22,325 bases of DNA from a virus: positions 1 to 22,325 of IMG/VR virus record IMGVR_UViG_3300032298_001112. One strand, 5' to 3'. Both the position numbers and the translations under genes were made by a program. Shown piece by piece: positions 974-19,820 of the stretch. A model generated the notes under the pieces. It searched no databases. It was not told the DNA's origin and was given only the letters and a program-made list of their open reading frames with translations. The first letter of the stretch is position 1. Every line of letters begins with the position of its first letter.

Positions 974-1504
974 ATGAAAATCGGATTTTGTGGAACAATT
1001 TCAGTTGGTAAAACAACACTAGTTAATGCATTAAGAGAATTACCTGAATTTGCAGACTATGAATTTAGAACAGAGCGTTCAAAATATTTACGTGATTTAG
1101 GTATTCCATTAAACACTGACTCAACATTAAAAGGTCAATTTGTATTTTTAGCTGAGCGTTCAAGTGAATTATATTTAGATAATGTAATTACTGATCGTAC
1201 TGTTATTGATGTAATGGCATTTACGCGTTTAGCACATTCAATTCCATATTATATAGGTGATACGTTAAACGAAGTTGCCGCTCATTTATTGCGCGAATAT
1301 GACTATATTTTTTACGTTTCACCTAATGGTGTTGAATTAGAGGATAATGGAGTACGTGCTATAGATGCAGAATATCGAATGGAAATCGATCAAGAAATTT
1401 GTAAAATTATCGAAAAACACAAAACTAAAATCCCTCATTTTGCTCGACTATCAGGTACTACCGAGGAGAGAATTAAGAAATTGAAACAAGTAATGGGTCT
1501 CTAA
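974..1504 (+). CDS. NadR-like P-loop ATPase/kinase (AAA_28 type)
   Basis: This 176-residue protein starts with a strand and a perfect Walker A, GTISVGKT (residues 7-14). A DR pair at 74-75 sits where small-molecule kinases of this fold carry their DRT/DRS motif, and a lid-like segment with GVR and EYR lies at about 126-135. This pattern matches the AAA_28 family, whose best-known member is the C-terminal ribosylnicotinamide kinase domain of NadR in NAD salvage. Phage copies are usually stand-alone domains of this size. I infer a nucleoside or nucleotide kinase role, possibly in NAD metabolism, but the substrate is not visible in sequence. It follows the FAD dehydrogenase by 5 bases, and its stop codon abuts a promoter-like element. 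No Shine-Dalgarno sequence precedes the start. Confidence 0.75.
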   Translation: MKIGFCGTISVGKTTLVNALRELPEFADYEFRTERSKYLRDLGIPLNTDSTLKGQFVFLAERSSELYLDNVITDRTVIDVMAFTRLAHSIPYYIGDTLNEVAAHLLREYDYIFYVSPNGVELEDNGVRAIDAEYRMEIDQEICKIIEKHKTKIPHFARLSGTTEERIKKLKQVMGL

Positions 1505-1518
1505 TATTTATAAATAAA
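1504..1518 (+). promoter_or_regulatory. Candidate late promoter, ATATTTATAAATAAA
   Basis: The core TATTTATAAATA (1505-1516) is a perfect palindrome and contains the T4 late-promoter box TATAAATA at 1509-1516. The same 15 bases recur at 6711-6725. If TATAAATA is centred on -10, transcription would start about 5 bases before the ATG at 1527, giving an almost leaderless message. Because the core is palindromic, the direction cannot be read from it alone. Confidence 0.6.
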
Positions 1519-1526
1519 ATTAGACA

Positions 1527-2477
1527 ATGAAAAAATCTCGTTTACTCGAAATCATACGTGAAGAAGTAACCGGAGCCCTAGATGAAATCCTTTACTCAGG
1601 CCCAGCTTCTTTAAAAGAACCTAAAGTTCAACAAGCTCTTTCAAAAATGCAAGGTGCTGAAAAAGCAGATGCTATAAAAGGAATTACAACTGGAGCAAAT
1701 CCTCTTAACCTCGAAGAAAAAATAAAAAAAATAGCTGAAAAATACCAACTTGATGAAGAAACCATCAATGAAATGGCTAGTATTAAACAGTTAAAAAGCG
1801 AATTAGCAAGACAAGGAAAAGAAGCCGAATTAAAAGCGGTTACTGATGCAGAACGTGCTGCTTTAGATACTTTAAAAGCAGACCCTACAATTACCTCAGA
1901 TGGACGATTAAAAGGATACGTTCCTACACTTAAAAAAGAATTGTTAAATACACATAATATCAAATTACAAGATTTATTATCTAAAGTAGCTGGTAAAGCT
2001 GAAGATGATGGTGTTAAATTTAGCAGCGATATTGCTACTAATACAATTGAAAAAGATGCTGCCAATCAATTAACTGGAAAAGAACCAGGACAACGTGGTA
2101 GAAAAGCAGATCCTAACAAACCTGAAAAACCAGCTTCTACAGGTAAAAAAGGAAGACCAGCAGGTGAACCTAAAGCAAAAGTAGCTACTCGTACACCTGG
2201 AGATGATGGATTTGATAAAATAGAATATTCAGATGTAGATGGTGAAGATAAAGAAGCAACACAAAATATAGGTAGTGATTCAACCGCAAAAGAATTAGGT
2301 ACTTTAGCTACAGGTAAAGAAGACACATTCAACAGAATTTTAGGTTTAGTTACAAAATATAAAGATGATAAAGCTAAAGTTGATGCTTTTATTTCTAAAG
2401 CCGAAAACGAATATAAACTCCCAGTTTCATTATTAAAACAATTAAAACTCGCCGCTGGTAGAGATGTTGAAATATGA
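1527..2477 (+). CDS. Unknown phage protein with basic AT-hook-like linker
   Basis: I do not recognise this 316-residue protein. It is highly charged and mostly helical in composition. The first 20 residues form a likely amphipathic helix (LLEIIREEV). Residues 62-115 are rich in K, E, A and L and could form a coiled coil. Residues 186-218 form a basic, Pro/Gly-rich linker with two cores, RGRKADP and KKGRPAG, that resemble AT-hooks. The C-terminal 60 residues are again helical. No signal peptide or membrane segment is seen. It follows a promoter-like element and overlaps the next gene by four bases (ATGA at 2474). Lying two genes before the large terminase, and possibly DNA-binding, it could be a packaging or virion protein; T4 keeps its small terminase just before gene 17, but length and sequence give no direct support for that role. 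Confidence 0.7.
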   Translation: MKKSRLLEIIREEVTGALDEILYSGPASLKEPKVQQALSKMQGAEKADAIKGITTGANPLNLEEKIKKIAEKYQLDEETINEMASIKQLKSELARQGKEAELKAVTDAERAALDTLKADPTITSDGRLKGYVPTLKKELLNTHNIKLQDLLSKVAGKAEDDGVKFSSDIATNTIEKDAANQLTGKEPGQRGRKADPNKPEKPASTGKKGRPAGEPKAKVATRTPGDDGFDKIEYSDVDGEDKEATQNIGSDSTAKELGTLATGKEDTFNRILGLVTKYKDDKAKVDAFISKAENEYKLPVSLLKQLKLAAGRDVEI

Positions 2478-2839
2478 TCCAAGATAAAACATTCCAACTA
2501 AAGCTATCCCATCTTATTATAGGTGGGATACTTTTATTGTTACTAGTATTTTTATTTAAATGTGATGTTGAAAAACCTACACCAACTGACAAATACGAAA
2601 AACAAAAACAGGAAATTGAGCGACTAAAAAATAATATTGAAGTATTAAAATTTGGTCAAAAAGTTTTAAACAAACAACTCGATCAACAAAATCATATTGT
2701 TGATTCATTAAATATAGAAATTAAACACACCGAAAAAGAGCTACAAACAACACGCACCTATTATGGCAACAAAATTAAAGATCTTACTAGTGCTTCTAAT
2801 ACTGAGCTCGAGCAGTTTTTCTCAGACCGTTACAGATAA
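2474..2839 (+). CDS. Small membrane-anchored coiled-coil protein, possible i-spanin
   Basis: This 121-residue protein has a short N-terminal tail, one strongly hydrophobic segment (about residues 13-28, including GGILLLLLVFLF), then a long polar helix rich in K, E, Q and N from about residue 38 to the end. That layout, an N-terminal signal anchor followed by a periplasmic coiled coil, is that of Rz-type inner-membrane spanins, which help disrupt the outer membrane at the end of infection. It begins inside the stop codon of the previous gene (ATGA). Its last 77 bases are read in another frame as the start of the next gene, as in many Rz/Rz1 pairs. No endolysin or holin is visible in the window, so the lysis role is an inference from topology and overlap. 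It could instead be a host membrane modifier. Confidence 0.65.
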   Translation: MIQDKTFQLKLSHLIIGGILLLLLVFLFKCDVEKPTPTDKYEKQKQEIERLKNNIEVLKFGQKVLNKQLDQQNHIVDSLNIEIKHTEKELQTTRTYYGNKIKDLTSASNTELEQFFSDRYR

Positions 2840-3191
2840 AATTTGTTTTTCACACGATAAAGCACGAACTATTGCAATTGACCTTACACGAGGTGATTCA
2901 GCTATTGCTGAATTGAAAGTTGTAAACAAGATGGTATGGCAGTTAAATGAAAAAATTGACGCCAAAGATAGCACAATTAGTATTTACGTATCTAAAGAAA
3001 AAAATTATCTTAAGCAAGTAGCAGACTATGAAAAGATTGTTACTGTACAAGATACTGTAATTAAAGGATTAGAAAAAGACGTTAAAGATCTAACTCGCAA
3101 AAACACTAACTTAAAGAAAGGTATTAAATGGTTAGGTGGAGGATTCGTGTCTTCCATACTTATTCTTCTTACATTTACCATAATTAAGTAA
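2763..3191 (+). CDS. Secreted, C-terminally anchored protein, possible spanin partner
   Basis: The 142-residue product opens with a typical signal peptide: MATKLK, a hydrophobic core LLVLLIL, then SSSSFSQ with likely cleavage before Q21. Signal peptides ending in SQ or AQ are common in Bacteroidota. A coiled-coil-prone middle follows (about 40-118), and the C-terminus is a second hydrophobic helix (about 124-141, GGGFVSSILILLTFTII). There is no lipobox cysteine, so it is not a classical Rz1 lipoprotein. Two membrane-interacting ends joined by a coiled coil recall a spanin that bridges the envelope. The start at 2763 is required for the signal peptide, so the 77-base overlap with the previous gene is real dual coding. 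Its stop codon TAA shares its last base with the terminase ATG. Confidence 0.65.
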   Translation: MATKLKILLVLLILSSSSFSQTVTDKICFSHDKARTIAIDLTRGDSAIAELKVVNKMVWQLNEKIDAKDSTISIYVSKEKNYLKQVADYEKIVTVQDTVIKGLEKDVKDLTRKNTNLKKGIKWLGGGFVSSILILLTFTIIK

Positions 3192-4792
3192 TGGAAGAAA
3201 AAAGTTTAAAACAAGTTGTCCGCGAGGAGTATATAAAGTGTGCCCAATCACCGGCATATTTTATGAAAAAATACTGCCAGATCCAGCATCCGAAGCGTGG
3301 GCGAATGCCTTTTAACCTTTACCCATTCCAAGAAAAAGTACTTACTCTATTTCAAGAAAATCCTTACTCAATAGTACTTAAATCTCGCCAGTTAGGTATC
3401 TCAACATTATCTGCAGGTTATTCTTTATGGTTAATGATATTCCATGAAGATAAAAACGTACTTTGTATTGCAACAAAACAGGAAACCGCTAAAAATATGG
3501 TTACCAAGGTAAAATTCATGTATGAAAATTTACCTTCTTGGTTAAAATTTGCAAATAAACCCGACGAAGCAAACAAATTAACACTTCGACTACCAAATGG
3601 ATCTCAAATTAAAGCAGTTGGTGCATCTGCAGATGCAGGTCGATCAGAAGCCGTTTCTTTATTGATTATAGATGAGGCCGCCTTTATTCACAACATTGGT
3701 GAGATTTGGGCCTCAGCTCAACAAACCTTAGCTACTGGTGGTGGATGTATCGCTTTATCTACACCTTATGGTACTGGTAACTGGTTTCATAAAACATGGG
3801 TTGCTGCTGAAATGGGTGAAAATAGTTTCTTACCTATTAGATTACCTTGGCAAGTACATCCTGAACGAGATCAATCATGGAGAGACCAACAAGATGCTGA
3901 TTTAGGTATTCGAATGGCAGCTCAAGAATGTGACTGTGACTTTACAACATCGGGTGATACAGTATTCACCCCTGAAGATATTACTTTTTACGAACAATTT
4001 CACGTGAAAGAACCTCTAGAAAAACGTGGTATTGATCAAAATCTATGGATTTGGGAACCAGCGGATTATTCGAGGAGTTATCTGATCGTAGCTGATGTAG
4101 CGCGTGGCGATGGCAAGGATTATTCGGCGTTTCACATCTTTGATGTCGAAACATTCACTCAGGTAGGTGAATATAAGGGCCAAATTAATACAAAAGATTA
4201 TGGACATTTACTAGTAAGCATTGCAACGGAATACAACAATGCCTTATTAGCAGTCGAAAATCAAAGCGTAGGTTGGTCAACCGTACAAACCATTTTAGAC
4301 AGAGGTTATCAAAATTTCTATTATTCACCAAAAGGTGGAGCAAATAATGTAGATTCTTTCTTTGATCCTTATATGGATCACAGTAAAATGACCCCAGGCT
4401 TTACAATGTCGAATACAACTCGCCCCATAGCAATTGGAAAATTTCAAGAAGCTGTTATGGATAAAGGAGTTGTTTTTTATTCTGCTCGTTTAATGGAGGA
4501 AATGAAAGTATTTATATGGAGAAATGGCAGAGCAGAAGCACAACAAGGATACAATGATGACCTAGTAATGGCATTTTGTATTGGCTGTTACTTACGTGAA
4601 ACCGCATTTAAACTTAGAACAAGTAATATGGAAATGACTAAAAGTATGTTAAATGGTATAGGTAATTCTCGTACTACATATGCTGGAGGTTATTCCAATG
4701 GGCCTAGTTATGCTGATAAGTATAACAATAACCCATTTCAAATAGACAACCCTTACTCAAACGGCAAAGAAGACATTTCTTGGCTTATATAA
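3191..4792 (+). CDS. 17: Terminase large subunit, T4 gp17-like
   Basis: This is the 533-residue DNA-packaging motor, an ATPase joined to a headful nuclease. The ATPase domain shows a Walker-A-like SRQLGIST (65-72), Walker B LLIIDEAAF (157-165) and coupling motif ALSTPYGTGN (188-197). The nuclease domain has the three acidic clusters of gp17: D302 in ADVARG, E356 in AVEN, and D456/D457 in YNDDL. T4 gp17 reads SRQLGKT at its Walker A, so the usual lysine is isoleucine here, and the nearest lysine is K64 just upstream. I recall the same GIST variant in marine T4-like phages. The length is slightly under that of T4 gp17. It lies 8 bases before the portal gene, with which its product would dock. 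The N-terminus (KQVVREEY) resembles the helix that opens the protein encoded at 1527. Confidence 0.95.
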   Translation: MEEKSLKQVVREEYIKCAQSPAYFMKKYCQIQHPKRGRMPFNLYPFQEKVLTLFQENPYSIVLKSRQLGISTLSAGYSLWLMIFHEDKNVLCIATKQETAKNMVTKVKFMYENLPSWLKFANKPDEANKLTLRLPNGSQIKAVGASADAGRSEAVSLLIIDEAAFIHNIGEIWASAQQTLATGGGCIALSTPYGTGNWFHKTWVAAEMGENSFLPIRLPWQVHPERDQSWRDQQDADLGIRMAAQECDCDFTTSGDTVFTPEDITFYEQFHVKEPLEKRGIDQNLWIWEPADYSRSYLIVADVARGDGKDYSAFHIFDVETFTQVGEYKGQINTKDYGHLLVSIATEYNNALLAVENQSVGWSTVQTILDRGYQNFYYSPKGGANNVDSFFDPYMDHSKMTPGFTMSNTTRPIAIGKFQEAVMDKGVVFYSARLMEEMKVFIWRNGRAEAQQGYNDDLVMAFCIGCYLRETAFKLRTSNMEMTKSMLNGIGNSRTTYAGGYSNGPSYADKYNNNPFQIDNPYSNGKEDISWLI

Positions 4793-4800
4793 AATAGAAT

Positions 4801-6699
4801 ATGGCAGATACAGGATTATTTACACGATTAAGACGACTATTTTCAACTGATGTTATCATTCGAAACGAAGGAGATAACCAATTGAAAGTATTTGATATAA
4901 ACAAAATCCAAATTTCAGGTGAATACGAAACTAATGCGTTAGTAGATAGATTCAATCGTATCTATACTAACTCACACACCTCAATTTATGGATATCAAAG
5001 CAGCTTTAATTACCAAACTTTACGCCCCACACTTTATTCCGAATATGATTCAATGGATACAGATGCTATCATTGCTTCTGCCTTAGATATCTTATCTGAT
5101 GAAAGTACATTACGTAATGATATGGGTGAAGTGTTACAAATTCGCTCATCTGATGAAGATGTACAAAAAATTCTATACAATTTATTCTATGATGTATTAA
5201 ATGTAGAATTTAACTTATGGCCTTGGATTCGTAATATGTTGAAATATGGTGATTTCTTTTTAAAACTAGAAATTGCTGAAAAATTTGGTGTGTATAATGT
5301 AATTCCTTACAATGCATTCCATATTGAAAGACAAGACGGATACGATAAAGATCACCCAAATTCAGTACGTTTTCGCTTTGACCCCGATGGTATTTCATCA
5401 CCTTCAGATTATGGTTATTATAATGTTCCAAACTCTGGTGGTCAAGCAAATTCAATATATTTTGACAATTATGAAATGGCACATTTCCGTTTATTAACGG
5501 ATACTAACTTTTTACCTTATGGTAGATCATATTTAGAGCCTGCTCGTAAATTATTTAAACAATATATTATGATGGAGGATGCGATGTTGATTCACCGTAT
5601 TGTTCGCGCACCTGAAAAACGTATATTCTATATCAATGTTGGAAACATTGCACCTGCTGAGGTAGAAAACTTCATGCAGAAAACAATTTCCAAAATGAAA
5701 CGTACTCCTTATATTGACCAACAAACTGGTGATTATAACTTGAAGTACAACATGCAAAACCTACTTGAAGACTTCTACATCCCAGTACGTGGTAATGATC
5801 AAGCAACTAAAATTGATAATTTAGCAGGTTTACAGTGGCAAGGTATTGAAGACGTTACCTACTTACGTGATAAATTATTTGCTGCCCTTAAGGTGCCTAA
5901 AGCATTTATGGGTTACGAAAAAGATTTGACTGGTAAAGCTACATTAGCTGCTGAAGATATTCGATTTGCACGTACAATTGAACGTATTCAACGTATTGTA
6001 GTATCTGAGTTGACTAAAATTGCATTGGTTCACTTATATGCTCAAGGATATCGTAACGAAAGCATGACAAACTTTGAATTATCATTAACTACACCTTCAA
6101 TTATTTACGATCAAGAAAGAGTAGCATTAATGAAAGAAAAAGTTGATCTAGCTACTCAGATGATGGAAAATAAAATCCTTCCTACTGATTGGATCTATGA
6201 AAACTTATTCCATTTAAGTGAAGATCAATATGATGAATATAGAGACTTACTTTTACAAGATGCCAAACGTAAATTCCGTATTGCACAAATTGAAAATGAA
6301 GGTAATGATCCACTTGAAACTGGAAAATCTTATGGTACTCCACATGATTTAGCTTCTTTGTATGGTAGAGGCAGATATGAAGCAACTAATGTACCTTTAG
6401 GTTATGATGAAGATGCTGAATTAGGCCGACCAGAAGAAAAGGTAACCGATAAAAATACCCAAGATAATGCTCTTGGAAAAGACAGACTTGGAACAGACGG
6501 TATTAAAAAAGACGGAGATGAATCAAATTCAATTAAACCTCAATATAAAGGTAACAGTCCATTAGCTCTTGAAACTAAAGGTAAACCTAATCCTAACAAA
6601 AGAATGTTTAACGATATCAAAAACCAACACAAACAAATGATTTTTGAATCAGACATTAGGGGGAATTCACTATTAGATGAATCACAAATACGAGAGTAA
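4801..6699 (+). CDS. 20: Portal protein, T4 gp20-like
   Basis: This 632-residue protein forms the dodecameric ring at the unique capsid vertex through which DNA enters and leaves and on which the prohead is nucleated. Recognisable gp20 features are a DTDAIIASALDILSDE helix (about 86-101), WPWIRNMLKYGDFFLKLE (about 140-157), and the clip-to-stem region VPKAFMGYEKDLTGKATLA (about 365-383) followed by ARTIERIQR. It is about 100 residues longer than T4 gp20. Most of the excess is a hydrophilic, probably disordered tail from about residue 510 onward, rich in K, N, D and G. No Shine-Dalgarno sequence is present; the leader is AAAATAGAAT. The position directly after the terminase differs from T4, where sheath and tube genes 18 and 19 intervene. 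Confidence 0.93.
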   Translation: MADTGLFTRLRRLFSTDVIIRNEGDNQLKVFDINKIQISGEYETNALVDRFNRIYTNSHTSIYGYQSSFNYQTLRPTLYSEYDSMDTDAIIASALDILSDESTLRNDMGEVLQIRSSDEDVQKILYNLFYDVLNVEFNLWPWIRNMLKYGDFFLKLEIAEKFGVYNVIPYNAFHIERQDGYDKDHPNSVRFRFDPDGISSPSDYGYYNVPNSGGQANSIYFDNYEMAHFRLLTDTNFLPYGRSYLEPARKLFKQYIMMEDAMLIHRIVRAPEKRIFYINVGNIAPAEVENFMQKTISKMKRTPYIDQQTGDYNLKYNMQNLLEDFYIPVRGNDQATKIDNLAGLQWQGIEDVTYLRDKLFAALKVPKAFMGYEKDLTGKATLAAEDIRFARTIERIQRIVVSELTKIALVHLYAQGYRNESMTNFELSLTTPSIIYDQERVALMKEKVDLATQMMENKILPTDWIYENLFHLSEDQYDEYRDLLLQDAKRKFRIAQIENEGNDPLETGKSYGTPHDLASLYGRGRYEATNVPLGYDEDAELGRPEEKVTDKNTQDNALGKDRLGTDGIKKDGDESNSIKPQYKGNSPLALETKGKPNPNKRMFNDIKNQHKQMIFESDIRGNSLLDESQIRE

Positions 6700-6710
6700 G
6701 GAAATTCTAT

Positions 6711-6725
6711 ATATTTATAAATAAA
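6711..6725 (+). promoter_or_regulatory. Candidate late promoter, ATATTTATAAATAAA
   Basis: Fifteen bases identical to 1504-1518, lying between the portal stop and the ATG at 6741. The T4 late box TATAAATA is at 6716-6723. With that box at -10, transcription would start near 6729 and leave a leader of about 12 bases. Confidence 0.62.
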
Positions 6726-6740
6726 CAAATATTTACAAGA

Positions 6741-7604
6741 ATGCAAGTTAAACATTCAAAGTATAAAAATACGGGTATCCTCTTTGAACTTTTAGTTCGC
6801 CAGATCACCACAGACACACTGGATGGAAAGGATTCCCCGGCTAAAGATATACTTAAAAAATATTTCGTTAAGTCGGAATTGGGTCGTGAGTATAAGTTAT
6901 ATGAAACGTTACTTAAAAGAACATCATTAACTGAAGGTAAAGCAAACGTTGTAGTAGATACATTAATCGAATCTTCTAAAACATTAAATAGAGGAGCTAT
7001 TAAACGTCAAAAATATAATTTGATTAGCGAGATTCAAAAACACTATGATTTAAACGAGTTTTTTAATCACAAGCTACCAAACTATAAAATGTTTGCTGCA
7101 TTCTATACGTTAACTGAAATCGCAAGTGCTCAACATACTATTGATCCTGATCAAGCTATTAACAATAAAGTAACTATTTTAGAGCATTTAACCGCTGCTA
7201 AAATTACTGAAAGTAAAGTACGTGATGAGGTAATGGGTGAATTTGAAAAAGCGGATAAAGATGTTCGTTTTCTAGCGTATAAAATGGTATTAGAAAGTTT
7301 TAATACAAAATATAACGATTTACACCCCCGTCAAAAAGAAATTCTTAAAGAATTTATTACTTCGGTTGATAATAAACCACGTTTAAAAGAATTTTATACT
7401 GCTAAAGTAGTTGAAATTAAAGAAGAATTAACTGCATTAAATGCTCATACTAAAAATGAAGCAACCAAAATAAAAATCAACGAAATTATCAATATTATCC
7501 AAATACCAGCTAAAACAGCTAAAATTACTGATAATGATTTAGTTGACTTGTTACAGTATTATGATTTAATTAACGAGTTAGAAACTGTAAATGGAAAAAA
7601 TTAA
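6741..7604 (+). CDS. Unknown helical protein downstream of portal
   Basis: I cannot assign this 287-residue protein to a named family. It is soluble-looking, with no signal peptide or membrane span, and is rich in K, E, L, I and N with alternating helical stretches throughout. The N-terminus reads KYKNTGILFELLVRQITTD, a well-formed amphipathic helix that is the most motif-like part. It follows a candidate late promoter and overlaps the next gene by 14 bases, which suggests coupled translation. It sits between portal and prohead protease, where T4 has the small core genes 67 and 68, so a prohead core or internal head role is a reasonable guess, but sequence similarity to gp67 or gp68 is not apparent to me. 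Confidence 0.7.
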   Translation: MQVKHSKYKNTGILFELLVRQITTDTLDGKDSPAKDILKKYFVKSELGREYKLYETLLKRTSLTEGKANVVVDTLIESSKTLNRGAIKRQKYNLISEIQKHYDLNEFFNHKLPNYKMFAAFYTLTEIASAQHTIDPDQAINNKVTILEHLTAAKITESKVRDEVMGEFEKADKDVRFLAYKMVLESFNTKYNDLHPRQKEILKEFITSVDNKPRLKEFYTAKVVEIKEELTALNAHTKNEATKIKINEIINIIQIPAKTAKITDNDLVDLLQYYDLINELETVNGKN

Positions 7605-9824: not shown

Positions 9825-9826
9825 TT

Positions 9827-10459: not shown

Positions 10460-10482
10460 AATATGCAAACCGGTGAAAAATT

Positions 10483-10509
10483 GCCCTCTTTTTGAGGGCT
10501 TTTTTTTTT
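10483..10509 (+). terminator. Rho-independent terminator after prohead protease
   Basis: A six-pair GC-rich stem, GCCCTC with GAGGGC (10483-10488 and 10494-10499), closes a TTTTT loop and is followed by ten T residues (10500-10509). Confidence 0.92.
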
Positions 10510-10552
10510 CTTTGCGACTTTAACGTGTTTGCTACATACATATAACTCGAAT

Positions 10553-10582
10553 ATGCCACCTCCCTCATATCTTATGTGGCAT
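10553..10582. repeat. Inverted repeat ATGCCAC / GTGGCAT
   Basis: Perfect 7-base arms (10553-10559 and 10576-10582) flank a 16-base spacer in the 188-base gap between protease and scaffold genes. No T-tract follows, so it is not an intrinsic terminator. It may be an operator or, if transcribed, a leader hairpin. The rest of the gap upstream of it (10511-10552) shows nothing recognisable. Confidence 0.5.
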
Positions 10583-10585
10583 CGA

Positions 10586-10593
10586 TATAAAAA
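10586..10593 (+). promoter_or_regulatory. Weak late-promoter-like box TATAAAAA
   Basis: The box matches TATAAATA at seven of eight positions, 54 bases before the scaffold ATG and downstream of a terminator, where a promoter for scaffold and capsid genes is expected. The window is AT-rich, so a chance match is quite possible. Confidence 0.35.
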
Positions 10594-10600
10594 ATTCTAT

Positions 10601-10620
10601 TACGTTTCTTAATAAACGTA
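10601..10620. repeat. Inverted repeat TACGTTT / AAACGTA before scaffold gene
   Basis: Perfect 7-base arms (10601-10607 and 10614-10620) surround a CTTAAT loop, followed by TTTTCCC, 27 bases before the scaffold start. If transcribed from the box at 10586, it would form a 5'-leader hairpin that could stabilise the message. The short T run makes a weak terminator or attenuator an alternative. Confidence 0.45.
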
Positions 10621-10647
10621 TTTTCCCAACAAAATAATTTAGGAAAA

Positions 10648-11685: not shown

Positions 11686-11713
11686 TTTTTTAAACAAAAA
11701 ACAAAAACAGAAA

Positions 11714-13429
11714 ATGTCAAACATTAATTCTCTTTTAGAAAGCGCAGCATCTGGATGGAAAAACATGCAGAGCGACGCAGCTCGTATGGCCTCAAAATGG
11801 GCTAAAACGGGTCTTTTGGAAGGATTGAGCACAGAAGTTGAAAAAAACAACATGGCTTTGATCCTCGAAAACCAAGCAAAACAACTTGTTGTTGAGCAAT
11901 CTTCTACAAACGTAGGTGGTGCTACTTTTACAGTAGGTCAAGGTGAACAATGGGCTGGTGTAGCTCTTCCATTGGTACGTAAAGTATTCGGTTCTTTGTC
12001 AACTAAAGAATTCGTTTCTGTACAACCAATGAATTTGCCTTCTGGTCTTGTATTCTTCCTAGATTTCCAATATGGTGATGCTAACGGTAAAGCTGCTCCT
12101 TCTGGTCCTTTTGGTCCTGGTGGTGACACTTATGGTGCTACTTCATCTATGTACGGTAATACTAACCCAGGAACTGCACTTGATGCTTCACAAGGTTTAT
12201 ACGGTGCTGGTCGATTTGCATACTCAATCAACCAATTCTCAGCTTCTGTATCTACAACTCGTGGAACTGCTCTTTGGTCTGATGTAGAGTATGATGCAAC
12301 TTTATCTGCCTCTGTTGCTGCTGGTAACTACTCAAAAGTTACAGTTACTATGCCAACAACCCCAGGTAAACTTCCAGATTACAAAGGTGTTCGCGCATTC
12401 ATATTAGCTTCAGGATCAGTTGCTGCTCCTCAAGCTGTACCAGTTTCTAACTTGTTACCACAATATACTACTACTAACGGTACTTCAACTGTAACCTTCA
12501 TTTACTCAGGTTCAGCAACAGGCCTTAACGGTGGTGTACCAGGTACAGGTTCAGGTGCTACTAACAACTATGTATTCTACAACGTTCAACCACAAGATAA
12601 CTACCGTGGTGATTTCGAAGATAACAGCGGTGCTGGTTACCCTAACGCTGATTCTACAGGTGCTGATCAATTAGCAATTCCACAAATCAATATCCAAATG
12701 AAATCTGAGGCTATTGTTGCTAAAACTCGTAAGTTGAAAGCACAATGGACACCAGAATTCGCTCAAGATTTGAACGCATACCAATCTTTGGATGCTGAAG
12801 CTGAATTGACTTCAATCATGAGCGAGTATATTGCATTGGAAATCGATCTTGAAGTATTGGATATGTTAATCCAAGATGCTAATGCATGGGATGAGTACTG
12901 GAACGTAGCAAACAACCAACAATTGAATTCTAACCAATCAGGTTATACTGATCTTGGTTTCTTCAACACACAAGGTCAATGGTTCCAAACTTTAGGTACT
13001 AAAATGCAGAAAGTTAGTAACAAAATTCACCAAAAGACTTTACGTGGTGGTGCAAACTTCATCGTAACTTCTCCAAGTGTAGCAACTATCCTTGAATCAA
13101 TCCCAGGATTTGCTTCATCTTCTGATGGTGATGTAACTAAAGCTAGCTATGCATTTGGTATCCAAAAAGCTGGTCAAATGAATAACCGTTACACAGTTTA
13201 TAAGAATCCTTATATGACTGAAGGTTTAATGTTAATGGGTTACCGTGGTTCACAGTTCCTCGAAACAGGTGCTGTATTTGCTCCATATGTGCCATTAATC
13301 ATGACACCTCTTGTGTACGATCCAGATACATTTACTCCACGTAAAGGTCTCTTGACTCGTTACGCTAAGAAAATGATCCGTCCTGAATTCTTTGGTCGTA
13401 TCTTTATCTCTAACTTGAACCTTCTTTAA
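11714..13429 (+). CDS. 23: Major capsid protein, T4 gp23-like
   Basis: This is the 571-residue HK97-fold shell protein. The ATG at 11714 is chosen over an in-frame ATG at 11651 that would overlap the scaffold gene and add 21 unrelated residues. The first 60 residues (helical, SLLESAASGWKNM and onward) look like the gp23 propeptide. Candidate cleavage points matching (L/I)xE or similar are E52 and E61, close to Glu65 in T4. The core follows with VGGATFTVGQG (67-77), a Gly/Thr-rich insertion around 100-310, AEAELTSIMSEYIALEID, and the conserved C-terminal part from about 490 (RYTVYKNPYMTEG, MGYRGSQFLETG, PYVPL, RPEFFGRIF). The leader is A-rich without a Shine-Dalgarno sequence. A strong terminator follows 25 bases later. 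Confidence 0.95.
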   Translation: MSNINSLLESAASGWKNMQSDAARMASKWAKTGLLEGLSTEVEKNNMALILENQAKQLVVEQSSTNVGGATFTVGQGEQWAGVALPLVRKVFGSLSTKEFVSVQPMNLPSGLVFFLDFQYGDANGKAAPSGPFGPGGDTYGATSSMYGNTNPGTALDASQGLYGAGRFAYSINQFSASVSTTRGTALWSDVEYDATLSASVAAGNYSKVTVTMPTTPGKLPDYKGVRAFILASGSVAAPQAVPVSNLLPQYTTTNGTSTVTFIYSGSATGLNGGVPGTGSGATNNYVFYNVQPQDNYRGDFEDNSGAGYPNADSTGADQLAIPQINIQMKSEAIVAKTRKLKAQWTPEFAQDLNAYQSLDAEAELTSIMSEYIALEIDLEVLDMLIQDANAWDEYWNVANNQQLNSNQSGYTDLGFFNTQGQWFQTLGTKMQKVSNKIHQKTLRGGANFIVTSPSVATILESIPGFASSSDGDVTKASYAFGIQKAGQMNNRYTVYKNPYMTEGLMLMGYRGSQFLETGAVFAPYVPLIMTPLVYDPDTFTPRKGLLTRYAKKMIRPEFFGRIFISNLNLL

Positions 13430-13454
13430 GATTTAAGTTGAATAAAACATGAAG

Positions 13455-13485
13455 AGCCTGGCGAAAGCCAGGCTTTTCTGTTTTT
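13455..13485 (+). terminator. Rho-independent terminator after capsid gene
   Basis: An 8-pair stem, AGCCTGGC with GCCAGGCT (13455-13462 and 13467-13474), closes a GAAA tetraloop and is extended by A-T pairs into TTTTCTGTTTTT. The GNRA loop makes the hairpin especially stable. Confidence 0.95.
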
Positions 13486-13490
13486 CTCTA

Positions 13491-13500
13491 ATATTTATTA
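13491..13500 (+). promoter_or_regulatory. ATATTTATTA element before phoH
   Basis: Fourth copy in order of similarity to the elements at 1504 and 6711, directly after the capsid terminator and 24 bases before the phoH ATG. It keeps only the left half of the palindrome; on this strand it does not match TATAAATA, while its complement contains AATAAATA. Confidence 0.45.
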
Positions 13501-13514
13501 GCAAATATAGTTAT

Positions 13515-14213
13515 ATGACAGATTTTAACAGAACTCCTGAAGCGCAGGAAGTATTTAAAGCAAAAAGAAAACCAAAAGGTCCGATTAAGTTCAACATTCA
13601 ATTGAATGAAGAACAAAAATCCGCTAAATCTAAAATTTTACATAATACAGTAACCATATTACGTGGTAAAGCAGGTTCTGGTAAATCTTTATTAGCAGCT
13701 AATGTAGCACTTGATTTGTTATTTAGTCGTGAAATTGAAAAAATTATTATTACTCGACCAACTGTAGTAGCAGGACAAGATATTGGTTTCCTCCCAGGAG
13801 ATGTTAATGAAAAACTTGCTCCATTTACTGCTCCTGTATATGAAAATATGCACCGTTTGTATAGTAAAGAAAAAATTGAAAAATGTATTTCTGAAGGTGA
13901 AATTGAAATTGTACCTGTATCATTTATGCGAGGTAGAAACTTTACTGATTGTTTAGTTGTAGTAGATGAAGCCCAAAACTTAACAGATAATCAAACTGAA
14001 CTCCTCTTAACCCGTATATGTTCAGGTAGTAAAATGATTTTTTGTGGAGATGCTGCTCAAGTTGACTTAAGAGATAAAAAATCATCTGGATTTGATGTTG
14101 TGTGTAAGCATATGAAAGAAGTACCTGGATTTGAGGTAGTTACATTAGAAAAAAATCACAGACACCCAATAGTAGACGACATTTTAGAGGTATACAAATC
14201 ATTTAGAGGATAG
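13515..14213 (+). CDS. phoH: PhoH-like P-loop ATPase
   Basis: A 232-residue PhoH-family protein with Walker A GKAGSGKS (51-58), a RPTV segment (81-84), GFLPGD (91-96), Walker B LVVVDEAQN (147-155), CGDAAQ (177-182) and a closing NHRHPIV (214-220). PhoH is an ATPase of uncertain function, linked to phosphate starvation in E. coli and possibly RNA-related, and is very common in marine and freshwater phages. The ATG at 13515 is preferred over 13449, because the longer version would translate through the capsid terminator hairpin. It lies between capsid and neck genes and is preceded by an ATATTTATTA element, so it probably starts a new transcription unit. Confidence 0.93.
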   Translation: MTDFNRTPEAQEVFKAKRKPKGPIKFNIQLNEEQKSAKSKILHNTVTILRGKAGSGKSLLAANVALDLLFSREIEKIIITRPTVVAGQDIGFLPGDVNEKLAPFTAPVYENMHRLYSKEKIEKCISEGEIEIVPVSFMRGRNFTDCLVVVDEAQNLTDNQTELLLTRICSGSKMIFCGDAAQVDLRDKKSSGFDVVCKHMKEVPGFEVVTLEKNHRHPIVDDILEVYKSFRG

Positions 14214-14215
14214 CC

Positions 14216-14226
14216 ATATTTATAAC
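14216..14226 (+). promoter_or_regulatory. ATATTTATAAC element before neck genes
   Basis: It lies 22 bases before the ATG at 14238 and immediately after the phoH stop. Its complement contains an exact TATAAATA (14217-14224), while the + strand gives only TATAACAA. It belongs to the same series as 1504, 6711, 13491 and 19740. Confidence 0.45.
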
Positions 14227-14237
14227 AAAATATTGCT

Positions 14238-15383
14238 ATGAATATTCCTATTTGGCCTGGCTCAAGTTCATTCCAACCCGGAGATACTCCATTTGGATTT
14301 TATGATAATGATCCACAATTTCAATCAGATGCTGATAAATTTGCAAAATTCGCTTCACAGCGTTTAGGATATCCTTTAGTTGAAGTTGAACTTCAAGACA
14401 TCAATTTTTACACAGCACTTGAAGATGCTGTAACAACTTATGGAAATGAGTTATATGCATACCAAGTAGCTGATAATTTATTAACCTTCCAAGGTAACCC
14501 AATGACCCTTGAACCAGCAAATAATAAGCTTGTTCAAGAAACTATGGCAAACGTTGTTTTACTTTCAAACCAATACGGAACTGAAGCTGGTGTTGGAGGT
14601 AAAGTAACCTATTACAGTGGTTCTATCCAATTAAAAAGAGGCCAACAAGAATATGATATGAATGCTTGGGCTGCTTCACAAAATATTACAGGAGGTATTG
14701 AAATTAAACGTATCTATTATGAAGCACCACCTGCAATCATGCGATATTTTGATCCATATGCTGGTACCGGTACTGGTATGATGCAAATGCTTGATAGTTT
14801 TGGTTGGGGTTCATATTCACCTGCTATTAACTTCATGTTAATGCCTATTAACTACGACTTACAAAAAATTCAAGCAATTGAATTTAACGATCAAATTCGT
14901 AAATCACAATATACATTCGAATTGGTAAATAACCAATTAAAAATATTCCCAATTCCTGTAGTACATTATCATGATTTATGGTTTCAATATGTTAAATTAG
15001 ATGAAACTAGATACCCATATGCTGATATTAGTGGAAGTTTAATTGTAACTCCTGGGGACGTACCATATGAAAACCCAATATATTCAAATATAAATTCAAT
15101 TGGTCGTTCATGGGTATTTGAATATGCTTTAGCTTTAACAAAAGAAATGTTAGGATATGTTCGTGGAAAATATTCTGTATTACCTATTCCTGGATCTGAA
15201 GTAACATTAAATCAAAGTGATTTGATTACTGCTGCTGCAAATGAAAGAACAGCACTAATTGATCGTTTACGATTATATTTAGATTCAACATCACGTAAAG
15301 CATTACTTGAAAAGAAATCAGCAGAAGCAGATTACCAAAATAATATATTGGCTGATGTTCCAATGACAATTTTTATAGGATAA
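14238..15383 (+). CDS. 13: Probable neck protein, T4 gp13-like
   Basis: This 381-residue protein starts with a Pro/Gly-rich stretch, then KFAKFASQRLGYPLVEVELQ and a helix around LEDAVTTYGNELYAY. That pattern (LGxPxVxVEL, then a helix with an acidic core) resembles the N-terminal part of head-completion protein gp13 in T4-like phages, which binds the portal after DNA packaging. A long middle domain and a C-terminal helix (about 325-365) follow. It is longer than T4 gp13 (about 309 residues). The main support is order: it is followed by genes that fit gp14 and gp15, the same order as in T4. An unrelated virion structural protein remains possible. It ends one base before the next start. Confidence 0.6.
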   Translation: MNIPIWPGSSSFQPGDTPFGFYDNDPQFQSDADKFAKFASQRLGYPLVEVELQDINFYTALEDAVTTYGNELYAYQVADNLLTFQGNPMTLEPANNKLVQETMANVVLLSNQYGTEAGVGGKVTYYSGSIQLKRGQQEYDMNAWAASQNITGGIEIKRIYYEAPPAIMRYFDPYAGTGTGMMQMLDSFGWGSYSPAINFMLMPINYDLQKIQAIEFNDQIRKSQYTFELVNNQLKIFPIPVVHYHDLWFQYVKLDETRYPYADISGSLIVTPGDVPYENPIYSNINSIGRSWVFEYALALTKEMLGYVRGKYSVLPIPGSEVTLNQSDLITAAANERTALIDRLRLYLDSTSRKALLEKKSAEADYQNNILADVPMTIFIG

Positions 15384-15384
15384 T

Positions 15385-15954
15385 ATGGCATTATTTGGAA
15401 CCCAACGTGATGTATCCCTTTTTAGACACCTCAATCGTGAATTGATGTGGGATATTATCTCCCAACAATGTGCTTACTACCAGTTAACTGAACAAACTAA
15501 AGTAAACATTTATGGTGAAGCTGCAGGTGCTAAATACTATAATGGTCCTGTTTTACTTAATGTTTTAATTGAAAGAGGTGACAACCAATCACCAGTAGAT
15601 GATTTTGGTGTAAGTTTTGATCGTCCTATGACATTCAGATTTTTACGAGATGATTTAGTAGGCAAAAACCCAGTTAATACGGGTGGTGGTCCTGATGTAG
15701 GTAACTATAATGGTACTCCTTATGGTGCAAATATTGTTCCTGAAGTAGGAGATATAATTATGTGGAATGAATCATATTGGGAAGTTGATAATGTAAATGA
15801 TAACCAATTATTTGTTGGAAAAGATCCACTCTACCCATACAATCAAAACCCAATCAACCCAGGATTGGAAAATTTTGGTTCAAATTTATCAATTATTTGT
15901 GTAGCACATTATGTCCCTTCAGATAAAGTTCAAATTACAAGAGAAAGATTATAA
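15385..15954 (+). CDS. 14: Probable neck protein, T4 gp14-like
   Basis: The 189-residue product begins with SLFRHLNRELMWDIISQQ, then a tyrosine-rich strand region, VNIYGEAAGAKYYNG, FGVSFDRPMTFRFLRDDL, and later PEVGDIIMWNESYWEVDNV. The plan, an N-terminal helix, a sentence-like YGE segment, FG-V and R-DDL strands, then a GDII-W-N-YWEV barrel segment, parallels gp14 of T4-like phages, which joins the portal-bound gp13 ring to the tail. It is shorter than T4 gp14 (about 256 residues). An AGGA lies 5 bases before the ATG, overlapping the end of the previous gene. It ends 2 bases before the gp15-like gene. Confidence 0.62.
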   Translation: MALFGTQRDVSLFRHLNRELMWDIISQQCAYYQLTEQTKVNIYGEAAGAKYYNGPVLLNVLIERGDNQSPVDDFGVSFDRPMTFRFLRDDLVGKNPVNTGGGPDVGNYNGTPYGANIVPEVGDIIMWNESYWEVDNVNDNQLFVGKDPLYPYNQNPINPGLENFGSNLSIICVAHYVPSDKVQITRERL

Positions 15955-15956
15955 AT

Positions 15957-17216
15957 ATGCCATCATCAAGAAAACCCAATCCTAAATCTCAATTAGAGAT
16001 ATCAACTAATCAGGTAGAACCTTATGTTTTTCCTGATACCGGGGAATCTTATGGTAATCCTAATATACCTTCTAATTTTAACCAATTTACAGCAAATAAT
16101 CAGAGCGGAATACCATTCAATCGTTCTGAACAAATGTCTGTTAAGGATGATACTTACAAACAGTTTGTTGTAGGATTACAAGATATTGATGAAGCAATAA
16201 TGTATTACTTTCAAAACGTAATACGACCATCTGTTTATCAAAATGGTGTACGAATTGAAGTACCTGTGATATATGGTTCACCTGAAAAATGGAAATCTGT
16301 ACAAAAAGATGGATATTATAAAGATAAAAATGGTGCTATAATGGCTCCACTAATTATGTTTAAAAGAGATACGATGGAAAAAAACCGTTCTCTTACAAAC
16401 AAATTAGATGCTAATCATCCTAACTTATATACTGCTTGGGCTAAAACATATAATCCAAAAAATGATTATTCAAATTTTAACGTATTAACAAACCGAGTTC
16501 CGGTAAAACAATTCGTTGTTAATGTAGTGCCTGACTATGTTAATTTAACGTATACATGTGCTATTCAAACATACTATGTTGAACAGATGAATAAAATAAT
16601 TGAAGCAATTAATTATGCTTCTGATTCATATTGGGGTGATCCTGAGCGTTTTAAATTTAAAGCATCAATTGATTCATATAGTACAGCTATTGAGGTATCT
16701 GATAATTCAAATCGTATTATAAAAGGTACATTTACTATTAAATTATTTGGTTACATTGTCCCAGACACAATTCAAAAAGATGTAACTGCTGTTAAAAAAT
16801 ATAATAGTAAAGCTCAAGTTGTTATTGGTTTAGAAACGGTTAATAATATAGCAGAAGTGAAACCACCAATTAAAAAAGTTTCCCCTATATTTATAGACGA
16901 TCAACAACTTGTAGTAAATTATATAGATCCTGCTGTGCTTCAATATTTAAACACTAACATACAAAAACTAGGAACAATCGTAAATTCAACCACAGTAACA
17001 TTTGCTAGTGGTTGGTTAACAGCTCCTACAGGACTCCCAGCAACATCATTAAATAATTTTTCTATATTTTGTAATGGTACTTTAATTGAAATTACCTCTA
17101 TAGTTTCATTTACTGAAAATGGAGGAACTACAACTCTTGTAATTGACCCATCAGTATTAGGATATGGTTTTAGTGCTGGAGATGAAGTAGTAGCAATAGG
17201 TAAGTTTAGTAATTAA
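15957..17216 (+). CDS. 15: Probable tail-completion/sheath-stabilising protein, T4 gp15-like
   Basis: In this 419-residue protein the region from about 65 to 275 follows the layout of gp15: a helix and YYFQNVIRP, RIEVPVIYGSPEKW, then APLIMFKRDTMEKN, a variable loop, VPDYVNLTYTCAIQTYYVEQMNKIIEAIN and finally GTFTIKLFGYIVPD. In T4, gp15 caps the tail tube and sheath and connects the tail to the neck. About 60 N-terminal residues rich in Pro, Asn and Ser, and about 140 C-terminal residues with a Val/Thr-rich beta domain, are additions not found in T4 gp15 (272 residues). The gene directly follows the gp14-like gene, as in T4. The added C-terminal domain is unexplained. Confidence 0.65.
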   Translation: MPSSRKPNPKSQLEISTNQVEPYVFPDTGESYGNPNIPSNFNQFTANNQSGIPFNRSEQMSVKDDTYKQFVVGLQDIDEAIMYYFQNVIRPSVYQNGVRIEVPVIYGSPEKWKSVQKDGYYKDKNGAIMAPLIMFKRDTMEKNRSLTNKLDANHPNLYTAWAKTYNPKNDYSNFNVLTNRVPVKQFVVNVVPDYVNLTYTCAIQTYYVEQMNKIIEAINYASDSYWGDPERFKFKASIDSYSTAIEVSDNSNRIIKGTFTIKLFGYIVPDTIQKDVTAVKKYNSKAQVVIGLETVNNIAEVKPPIKKVSPIFIDDQQLVVNYIDPAVLQYLNTNIQKLGTIVNSTTVTFASGWLTAPTGLPATSLNNFSIFCNGTLIEITSIVSFTENGGTTTLVIDPSVLGYGFSAGDEVVAIGKFSN

Positions 17217-17232
17217 TTAATTTTTTTTTAAA

Positions 17233-17376
17233 ATGGCAAAAGCAAAAGCACAAACAGCGATTTCATTTGTTAAAAAACCTCGCAAAAAAAGACCAGGAAT
17301 TCACGCAAAATCTAAAGTAAGTAAAAGTAAAAATAGTAAAAATTACGTTAAAGTATACGTAGCACAAGGAAAATAA
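17233..17376 (+). CDS. 47-residue lysine-rich basic protein
   Basis: A short gene placed exactly between two others (16 bases after the gp15-like stop, 1 base before the next ATG). The product has an alternating MAKAKAQTA start, a KKPRKKRPGIHAKSK core (14-28), a Ser/Lys run and an NYVKVYVAQGK end. I recall similar tiny proteins with RPG-HAK, SKN-NY and GQG signatures in other phages, but I know no function. About one third of residues are Lys or Arg, so nucleic-acid binding or an internal virion role is plausible. Nine T residues (17221-17229) precede the AAA before its ATG. Its clean fit between neighbours and its internal motif order support a real gene. Confidence 0.8.
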   Translation: MAKAKAQTAISFVKKPRKKRPGIHAKSKVSKSKNSKNYVKVYVAQGK

Positions 17377-17377
17377 G

Positions 17378-17764
17378 ATGTCATTAATTAAACCGGAACA
17401 GTTACGATCAGGATCATACAATATAACGGGTTCGTTATTTGGTACTTCATCCCTTGCTTTAACTGCTTCGTATTTTAGTGGTTCTATAACTAGTGCAATA
17501 AGTGCATCATATGCTTTAACAGCCTCATATGCTTTAAATGCTGGAGGAACTGGTACTCCATTTAGGATCTCCACAGGAAGCATTTCAGCTAGTGTAGATG
17601 TTGGACAAAATATCTTTATTATTACTAAAAATAATATACCTGTCTTAACAGTATCCCAAAGTGGAGTTATAATATTAGCTACTCAATCTCAGGAGCTTGT
17701 AGGTCCTGCTCCAAATGGTGGAATCTATTTTACCTCAGCATCATTCTATATTGGTCTTGATTAA
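17378..17764 (+). CDS. Short fibre-like protein with TASYA repeats
   Basis: This 128-residue protein has an N-terminal part made of imperfect Ser/Ala/Tyr repeats (about 20-55: GSLFGTSSLALTASY, SASYALTASYALNA), followed by a Gly-rich hinge and a likely beta-strand domain (about 60-128). Repeats of the TASYA type are typical of fibre and baseplate-associated proteins in T4-like phages from water samples. The same repeat style appears in the next two fibre genes. I infer a small virion fibre or connector subunit. It starts one base after the 47-residue gene, with AGGA 8 bases upstream, and is followed by a 43-base gap with no terminator. Confidence 0.7.
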   Translation: MSLIKPEQLRSGSYNITGSLFGTSSLALTASYFSGSITSAISASYALTASYALNAGGTGTPFRISTGSISASVDVGQNIFIITKNNIPVLTVSQSGVIILATQSQELVGPAPNGGIYFTSASFYIGLD

Positions 17765-17807
17765 GAATTACATATGTATAATAAAACAACTAAAATAAGA
17801 AAATAAC

Positions 17808-19241
17808 ATGGCAACTTGGAAAAAAGTCATTGTCTCGGGCAGTGCAGCAAACCTCTCAGCTTTACAAGTAGACAATTTAACTTCCGGTCAGGTAGTAATT
17901 GGTGGTGGTACAGGTAACTTATCAACTACAGCAATTAACGGTACTGGAAACATTGTAGCAACAACTGGTGCTACTGGATTAAACATGAGTGGTTCATTTA
18001 GTGGATCATTTCAAGGTAATTTTGTTGGTACTACTAACCTACCTGATTTAACCCAAGGTACTGGTATTACAGCATTTACTTATGATGGTGCAACTACAGC
18101 AACTGTAGCAGTAAGTGGTGCCTCTACTTTAAGTACAAATAATATTTCAAAGTGGACAGGTACAGCATTTGCTAACTCATCATTAACTGATAATGGTACT
18201 ACAATTACAGGTGCTACTTCATTACAGTTAACAGGAGCCAGCTCAGCATTGACTGGTTCATTTAGCGGTTCATTTAGTGGTAATGGTGCTAATTTAGTAG
18301 GAGTTACAGCAACTGCTATATTCCCAACTTCTCAAGTAACTAACATTACAAGTACTGATAAATTCTTTATTAGCCAAAGTGGTAATGAATATATTACTTA
18401 TGGTAACTTATTAACAGATTTAGCTGGTACTAATTTAACAGTTGAAGGTACAGATAGCTTAACACTAGCATCACAAATTTCAGTAACTGGAATTACAGCA
18501 TCTTTGGCAGGTACTGCAAGTTGGGCTGCAAATGCCGTAACAGCTCTACGCTCTAATGAATTTGTAGTTACTGATACAACCACTGGTACAGGCCCATATT
18601 ACGTAGTATTTACTGATGGAACTTCAGGAGCTCAAACTCCACGAGTTGATTCATCAGCATTAACATTTAATGCTACAACAAATACATTAACAGTAACATC
18701 ATCATTTGCAACCCAAGCAGTAAGTGCATCATTTGCATCTTCTGTTAATAACTTAACAAATGCTATTACCAACAATGCTGATAATAGAGTATTAACAGCA
18801 ACTGGTGGTGGTACAATTAATGGTGAAGGAAACTTAACATTTGACGGTACTACATTAACAGTAACAGGTAACCAAGTATTAACTGGTAACTTAGTAGTAC
18901 AAGGTACAGCTTCATTCCAACAAACAACTAACTTAGAAGTTGCTGACCGATTTGTATTATTCGCTTCAGGTTCAAATTCAGCAGGAGATGGTGGTATTGT
19001 TATTCAACAAGCTACTCAAAATGTAGGTGAATTATTTGCCTATGAAAACTCAGTTAACCGTTGGGGTTTCACATCTTCATTTAATGCTTCCAACCCTTCA
19101 TACACAGCAGCAGCTTTTGTAACTACTACAGAAGTAGGTACAGTAGCTCCAACAGCAGCCCCAATATATGGTGGTGCAAGTAATGGATTAGGTAATATTT
19201 ATGTTAGATCTACTACAGAAGAAATATTTATCTACTCTTAA
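17808..19241 (+). CDS. Tail-fibre-like structural protein
   Basis: This 477-residue protein is dominated by Thr, Ser, Gly, Ala and Asn, with beta-repeat composition and almost no Cys or Trp. It opens with [20 protein letters not shown], nearly the same as the start of the collagen-like fibre at 19821. Repeats include SGSFSGSFQGNFVG (about 61-74), GTASWAANAVTA (about 234-245) and ATQAVSASFAS (about 302-312). Segments such as NRVLTATGGGTINGEGNLTF (about 325-344) and GTTLTVTGN are classic phage-fibre beta-helix repeats. The C-terminal 120 residues (from about VADRFVLFASG) look like a distinct globular end. No chaperone domain is visible. It is followed 20 bases later by a terminator, so it ends the neck and fibre transcription unit. 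A role in host adsorption is inferred. Confidence 0.82.
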   Translation: MATWKKVIVSGSAANLSALQVDNLTSGQVVIGGGTGNLSTTAINGTGNIVATTGATGLNMSGSFSGSFQGNFVGTTNLPDLTQGTGITAFTYDGATTATVAVSGASTLSTNNISKWTGTAFANSSLTDNGTTITGATSLQLTGASSALTGSFSGSFSGNGANLVGVTATAIFPTSQVTNITSTDKFFISQSGNEYITYGNLLTDLAGTNLTVEGTDSLTLASQISVTGITASLAGTASWAANAVTALRSNEFVVTDTTTGTGPYYVVFTDGTSGAQTPRVDSSALTFNATTNTLTVTSSFATQAVSASFASSVNNLTNAITNNADNRVLTATGGGTINGEGNLTFDGTTLTVTGNQVLTGNLVVQGTASFQQTTNLEVADRFVLFASGSNSAGDGGIVIQQATQNVGELFAYENSVNRWGFTSSFNASNPSYTAAAFVTTTEVGTVAPTAAPIYGGASNGLGNIYVRSTTEEIFIYS

Positions 19242-19261
19242 TAAAAAGATTAAATTTAAAT

Positions 19262-19291
19262 GGGGTAGATTAACGTCTACCCCTATTTTTT
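19262..19291 (+). terminator. Rho-independent terminator after fibre gene
   Basis: An 8-pair stem, GGGGTAGA with TCTACCCC (19262-19269 and 19276-19283), closes a TTAACG loop and is followed by TATTTTTT. A TATAATTA sequence (19291-19298), seven of eight to the T4 late box, directly follows it and could serve the next small gene. Confidence 0.93.
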
Positions 19292-19303
19292 ATAATTAAT
19301 GTT

Positions 19304-19492
19304 ATGGGTATTATAGACAAAATTAGACCAAATTCTCAACCACAAGAGACACCATCAAATCAACTTTCACAACAAGAAATAGAGGTTTTACTTTCTATGA
19401 TTAGACGTACAACTTTCCTTGGAGAAGATTTAGAGCCTTTATATAATTTAGTTGTTAAATTGCAAGAGCAATATCTAGAACTGACTAAATAA
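19304..19492 (+). CDS. Small unknown protein, 62 residues
   Basis: A short soluble protein with a Pro/Gln-rich start (about 8-24) and a helical remainder containing EIEVLLSMIRRTTFLG and LEPLYNLVVKLQEQYLEL. I recall small phage proteins with a similar pattern, a hydrophobic helix, a F-G turn, then a LYNLVVKLQ-like helix, but no function is attached to them. It is the first gene after a terminator and stands 6 bases before another small gene, so the two form a pair. The compact helix-turn-helix design would suit a small assembly factor or tail accessory protein, which is only a guess. Confidence 0.7.
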   Translation: MGIIDKIRPNSQPQETPSNQLSQQEIEVLLSMIRRTTFLGEDLEPLYNLVVKLQEQYLELTK

Positions 19493-19498
19493 TAAAAT

Positions 19499-19735
19499 AT
19501 GAATTTATTTTCTGTAGATTTTTCCCACGCCGAATTAAATTTTATTCGACAAGCATTGGAAACCATTCCTATCCAAGGACGTGACGCTAAATTTTGTGCT
19601 TCTATCCAAATTAAACTTGAACATGAGTTAGAAGAAATTACTCAAATGATTAAAGCTGAAGAAGAAGCAAAAATGTTAGGTCTTCAACAAATCATCCAAC
19701 ATGAAGAAACAAAAACTTCAACCAGAAAAAGATAA
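19499..19735 (+). CDS. Small unknown helical protein, 78 residues
   Basis: The product begins LFSVDFSHAELNFIRQALETIPIQGRDAKF across residues 3 to 32, then a long Glu/Lys-rich helix (about 40-65), ending in a basic TSTRKR tail. The pattern of an early helix, an IQGRDAKF loop and a second helix resembles the preceding gene (helix, FLGEDLEP loop, helix), so both may be related small helical-hairpin proteins. No motif for binding or catalysis is evident. It lies 6 bases after its neighbour and is followed by an 85-base gap that holds a structured leader for the collagen-like fibre gene. Confidence 0.68.
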   Translation: MNLFSVDFSHAELNFIRQALETIPIQGRDAKFCASIQIKLEHELEEITQMIKAEEEAKMLGLQQIIQHEETKTSTRKR

Positions 19736-19739
19736 TAAT

Positions 19740-19749
19740 ATATTTATTA
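19740..19749 (+). promoter_or_regulatory. ATATTTATTA element before collagen-like fibre gene
   Basis: It is identical in its ten bases to the element before phoH (13491-13500). Here it stands 81 bases before the next ATG rather than 22-30, leaving room for a long leader. Its complement contains AATAAATA. Confidence 0.4.
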
Positions 19750-19812: not shown

Positions 19813-19820
19813 TTTATTAA

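Follow-up and report, generated by a model that had tools for sequence, protein, structure and literature searches.

A putative variant of the T4-type late promoter in a clade of T4-related aquatic phages

The late genes of phage T4 are transcribed from promoters that carry the box TATAAATA and depend on the proteins gp55, gp33 and gp45, a system that serves as the model of sliding-clamp-activated transcription. Searches in relatives of T4 usually look for the T4 box as such. An excerpt of PMC2988020 places the start of the T4 box at -13, about one helical turn before the transcription start, and gives the late consensus of the T4-related Aeromonas phage Aeh1 as a variant with a/gC at -13/-12. 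Rhodothermus phage RM378, which has T4-related capsid and terminase proteins, carries a single AT box, TATTTAAA, that is oriented with the genes on both strands and frequently stands few bases before an ATG.

Here we analyze a window of 22,325 bases, the whole of an IMG/VR record of a T4-related myovirus. Pfam and PHROGs matches identify a terminase, gp20 portal, prohead protease, gp23 capsid and PhoH. Among named phages, the terminase is closest to that of Flavobacterium phage immuto, at 56% identity, followed by Microcystis phage Mel-JY01 at 52%. A host of the Flavobacterium kind may be supposed. Based on sequence comparison, we consider it probable (about three chances in four) that a repeated element in this window, ATATTTATWA, is a late promoter, a variant of the T4 type, in a clade of T4-related aquatic phages. 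It shares with the T4 late promoter a single 8-bp TATA-like box, the lack of a -35 element, AT-rich DNA downstream and an association with structural genes, which in the box-carrying genomes are of T4 type as in T4. It differs in that the box reads TATTTATA, the ATG is often closer, and eight records searched gave no match to the gp33 and gp45 families. As in Aeh1, the box of a T4 relative would be altered, but in Aeh1 the change is at the first two positions and in the clade at the central two. The RM378 box has other last bases, and the annotated RM378 sigma matches phrog_1740. A search of open-licence PMC papers found no description of the clade box, which may still be published.

The copies considered in the window are as follows.

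1504..1518, + strand: late-box copy 1, ATATTTATAA followed by AT and AAA, for the gene at 1527
1505-1512, + strand: box TATTTATA of copy 1, with the proposed start region at 1516-1518
6711..6725, + strand: late-box copy 2, box at 6712-6719, 3' of the portal gene, for gene 6741
13491..13505, + strand: late-box copy 3, TATTTATT at 13492-13499, for phoH at 13515
14216..14230, + strand: late-box copy 4, box at 14217-14224, for the gene at 14238
19740..19749, + strand: late-box copy 5, TATTTATT at 19741-19748, for the fibre gene at 19821
17772..17781, + strand: diverged copy with one mismatch (ATATGTATAATAAAACA / ATATGTATAA), preceding the gene at 17808
15949..15958, - strand: ATATTTATWA match formed where the stop of one gene meets the start of the next

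Counted across the window, exact ATATTTATWA occurs five times on the + strand and once on the minus strand; 100 shuffled windows contained 0.75 copies on average and 4 at most, and none reached six. The first-pass annotation, which had proposed such a shuffled control, located all five + copies (starting at 1504, 6711, 13491, 14216 and 19740) correctly; it overlooked the minus-strand match and the one-mismatch copy. It placed four of them 22-30 bases before an ATG, and the distances from motif start are indeed 23 (1527), 30 (6741), 24 (13515) and 22 (14238), with 81 for copy 5 (19821). Gene 14238 matches PHROG head-tail adaptors (Ad2-like). Copy 5 and the sequence after it are also present in two related IMG/VR genomes, G003 (whose portal is 97% identical to that of the window) and G006, and the site orthologous to the one-mismatch copy is exact in G006 and has the identical one-mismatch form in G003. 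The conserved stretch 3' of copy 5 (19740-19820) has a possible small hairpin, ACACAG...CTGTGT, with altered versions in G003 and G006.

Conservation before orthologous genes was assessed in at least 80 loci from a portal-based IMG/VR scan. For each window gene, relatives with a matched N-terminus and upstream DNA were taken, and ATATTTATWA was sought within 60 bases upstream; many of the loci come from close relatives and so are not independent, and those without a usable ATG were left out (3 for gene 2474, 3 for gene 7591 and 1 for the fibre gene). Among the loci listed, both ATATTTATWA and TATTTATA precede gene 6741 in all 77 relatives, and motif positions 1-10 are 100% identical in 76 of the 77, those that could be anchored, with identity dropping to 32-82% in columns -10 to -2 before the gene. 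Exact ATATTTATWA also precedes gene 1527 in 23/25 relatives, phoH in 12/13 and gene 14238 in 4/6 of the loci listed. At the portal gene the listed loci gave ATATTTATWA in 3/77 and TATTTATA in 12/77. The motif was found upstream of none of the listed relatives of gene 974 (0/31), gene 2474 (0/36), gene 2763 (0/41), the terminase (0/55), gene 7591 (0/54), gene 8094 (0/61), the protease (0/37), the scaffold (0/26), the capsid (0/24) or gene 15385 (0/5), and genes from 17233 onward had no usable loci in this count.

Across 92 sites, the conserved unit comprises TATTTATW and a downstream AAA, at motif positions 1-10 and 13-15, with positions 11-12 variable; seeding the search on either half caused the remaining half to emerge. 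A conserved -35 element is absent, upstream columns reaching at most 0.50 bit in these 92 sites. The main form, TATTTATA, is identical to the T4 box at six of eight positions and differs only at middle positions 4-5, which are TT rather than AA. As the first-pass annotation had noted, copies 1 and 2 share 15 identical bases, ATATTTATAAATAAA, with TATAAATA inside them at 1509-1516 and 6716-6723. The weight it gave to that exact box is misplaced: among the loci listed, TATAAATA occurs before gene 6741 in 62/77 relatives, never without TATTTATA, and before phoH in 0/13, where TATTTATT is found in 12/13. TATAAATA spans motif positions 6-13, including the variable ones that TATTTATW (positions 2-9) avoids. 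We thus reject the idea that the functional unit is the exact T4 box, which copies 1 and 2, by this comparison of sequences, contain incidentally. Because the exact TATAAATA box is not what the sites conserve, the element is not a T4 late promoter proper. Applied to 96 kb of T4, the same method returned TATAAATA as the top word, before 16 genes versus 0.69 expected.

If T4 geometry is applied to TATTTATW, +1 would fall at motif position 15, inside the AAA, and an ATG that follows the 10-base element by 4 nt would itself be the start point. At 19 of the 92 sites (those no more than 45 nt from a called start) the start codon lies 0-6 nt from the element, most commonly at 4 nt (7 sites), so that near-leaderless late mRNAs are predicted. 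The distance from box end to ATG spans 1-33 nt in immuto and 4-31 nt in G003, and 14-34 in the part of T4 examined. For most of the genes with 0-6 nt spacing and an informative orthologue, protein conservation begins at these Met codons; several have no informative orthologue or match nothing but repetitive fibre sequences, and protein conservation does not confirm two of the starts, G001:8772 and immuto:1346.

Placement and orientation were examined in five IMG/VR genomes (G001, G002, G003, G005 and G006) and immuto. Gene-sense copies fall in noncoding DNA in 116 of 130 cases, although noncoding DNA is 4.8% of the sequence (binomial p 3e-135, for copies that are not independent and for noncoding fractions that are approximate, the gene models coming from a simple ATG caller). 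The equal frequency inside genes that the first-pass annotation had named as a possible refutation is therefore not observed. In each of five IMG/VR genomes TATTTATAA precedes 14-22 genes, and in immuto it precedes 15; control words of the same composition precede 0.6-2.5 genes on average. Chance occurrence in AT-rich DNA is rejected by the shuffles, the same-composition words and the noncoding concentration. The first-pass annotation had also raised the possibility that some copies fire antisense, and antisense or bidirectional promoters of the T4 late type would explain why (A/T)ATAAATA appears on the minus strand of every + copy (it had noticed this correctly for three copies, but the reading holds for all five) and why a 12-bp palindrome in copies 1 and 2 puts the T4 box on both strands. 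We consider this very improbable, given only 13 antisense copies in the same six genomes, 3 of them noncoding, against the 130 in sense. The window's single antisense match does not recur at the orthologous junctions: G001, G003, G005 and G006 have a different sequence there, the box stands upstream of gene 15957 in 0/2 relatives among the loci listed, and we judge the match, from these alignments, to be a chance product of the stop/start junction. Nearly all genes of the six genomes lie on the + strand, and orientation there is inseparable from genome strand; RM378, with genes on both strands, makes the separation possible for its own box. In the roughly 90 of 130 kb of RM378 examined, TATTTAA-type boxes precede 26/107 genes in the orientation of the gene, 13 of the 26 standing 5-9 nt from the ATG. 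Mel-JY01 lacks comparable enrichment (0 TATTTATAA and 2 TATTTATTA before 219 genes) despite its sigma-like protein, and the box is absent from the part of LR756508 examined.

The position of the element close 5' of start codons would also suit an RNA-level element, an AU-rich site for ribosome loading or processing in the mRNA leader, in hosts without Shine-Dalgarno sequences. An excerpt of PMC6847099 describes A-rich leaders that increase translation in Flavobacterium johnsoniae, with A at -3, -6, -12 and -13. The core of the element, however, is T-rich with a fixed sequence rather than merely A-rich, its distance to the ATG ranges from 0 to 29, which a ribosome-positioning site would hardly tolerate, and it is absent upstream of genes inside operons. 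Moreover, in every gap that contains both a terminator and the motif, the motif is downstream of the terminator (14/14), not before it. Terminators are not themselves enriched for the motif (14/50 gaps with a terminator versus 116/419 without). The window has a terminator hairpin at 13455-13474, directly 5' of copy 3, and contributed nothing to the 14 because the gene caller had phoH begin at 13449, a start that precedes the motif. We regard the RNA-level explanation as unlikely. Less likely again is an ordinary promoter for the main or another host sigma, or an operator, with no late specificity. TATAAT does lie within the extended form ATATTTATAATAAA, and the bases downstream are AT-rich, but the -35 is not conserved, and the Flavobacterium main-sigma promoter is given in the excerpt of PMC6847099 as TANNTTTG. 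A motif of this kind, GTTG-N20-TATATTTAG, similar to the Bacteroidota promoter, precedes early-looking genes of immuto at 67-74 kb, whose early timing is presumed. With structural-block boundaries drawn by us from the deposited annotation, the late-type box precedes 14/61 immuto genes in structural blocks versus 4/157 others (Fisher p 6e-6), the early-type motif precedes 0/61 versus 14/157, and no gene has both. Early-looking genes of G001 (101-107 kb) have a different repeated promoter-like sequence; at G001:101603-106850 it is found in front of 13 small genes and is flanked by a conserved AGGA on the upstream side and TATAATTAAAAA on the downstream side.

The late-promoter reading thus agrees with the earlier suggestion of a promoter related to but different from that of T4, in that TATTTATW is gene-oriented, has no -35 and is concentrated before structural genes. 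We propose that host RNA polymerase with a phage-encoded sigma, consisting of a -10-reading domain 2 and its own C-terminal domain, would read the box. The recognized site would be the single 8-bp TATTTATA (TATTTATT at some sites) without a -35 element, and transcription would start at the conserved AAA (positions 13-15), some six bases past the box. The logic would be that of the T4 TATAAATA promoter, with changed wording of the box. Most predicted leaders measure 0-15 nt, and at roughly one site in five the mRNA would lack a leader completely or almost completely. Shine-Dalgarno sequences are not used by hosts of the Flavobacterium kind, and a box that almost touches its gene may be possible for this reason.

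A candidate for such a sigma was identified. The gp55 family (phrog_234) gave weak matches (E 0.001-0.008) in four of eight records (G001, G003, G004 and immuto, where the protein is gp118, KNV73_gp118), and these sigma-like proteins are orthologous to one protein in G002 and one in Mel-JY01; phrog_12791 had no match in the eight records. The gene lies outside the window and is present in G003. Among 15 IMG/VR records behind the portal loci, the protein was detected in the four largest, the others being shorter. Sigma70_r2 matched one of three sigma-like proteins scanned (E 0.01). A structural model (pLDDT 75, pTM 0.44) predicts sigma domain 2 at residues ~7-115, and all 50 PDB fold matches listed are sigma factors or sigma complexes, including 4lup_A (Z 9.0, 2.4 A over 91 residues). 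Foldseek returned nothing at E below 0.001, a sequence search of solved structures nothing at E up to 1, and hhalign of the candidates against T4 gp55 was not significant. T4 gp55 has 185 aa and a C-terminal sliding-clamp epitope, whereas the clade proteins have ~235 aa and a different, helical C-terminal domain, confidently predicted (pLDDT 87). A fold search with this domain gave no clear PDB match (best Z 5.9, Fur); sigma domain 4 is absent among the matches listed, which excludes nothing. From the predicted structure, the sigma-like protein is perhaps a remote analogue of gp55. In G002 the gene has extra sequence between its two matched halves (G002:C1:52637-52804).

The gp33 and gp45 families (phrog_254 and phrog_223) had no match in the eight records, six of which are possibly fragments. 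The gp44 clamp loader family matched strongly in G001, G002 and Mel-JY01 and not at all in immuto. A protein near PolB in the same three genomes (G001:57947-58681 in G001), absent from immuto, might be guessed from its position to be the clamp, though it matches no clamp family; the immuto annotation has family A polymerases. If immuto carries out late transcription without a clamp, this would be a departure from T4. One speculative possibility, which we think doubtful, is that late transcription in the clade has become less tightly tied to the replication machinery, with a two-domain sigma replacing gp55 and gp33, no clamp or clamp loader in immuto, a reworded box and many leaderless late mRNAs. 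With its reworded box, diverged sigma and one cultured member without a detected clamp or clamp loader, this common aquatic clade lets the contributions of box, sigma and clamp be tested separately. The box may also serve as a rule for annotating late transcription units in comparable environmental phage contigs.

The scaffold/major capsid operon has no copy of the element in the window or, among the loci listed, in 26 and 24 relatives; this counts against the late-promoter reading, as a strong late promoter would be expected there. At 10483-10546 a terminator is followed by conserved GCGACTTT and CATAYATATAAC, then by a structured leader. The GCGACTTT/CATAYATATAAC region is perhaps a separate promoter class for the box-less operon. 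The leader itself (10525-10647), 5' of the operon, is a conserved structured RNA with three hairpins in 27 aligned sequences; in Rfam it found nothing above threshold, the single match being far under the gathering score. Hairpin 1 (10550-10559 pairing with 10573-10582) has five compensatory pairs and no breaks, and the covariation score was reached in none of 500 shuffles.
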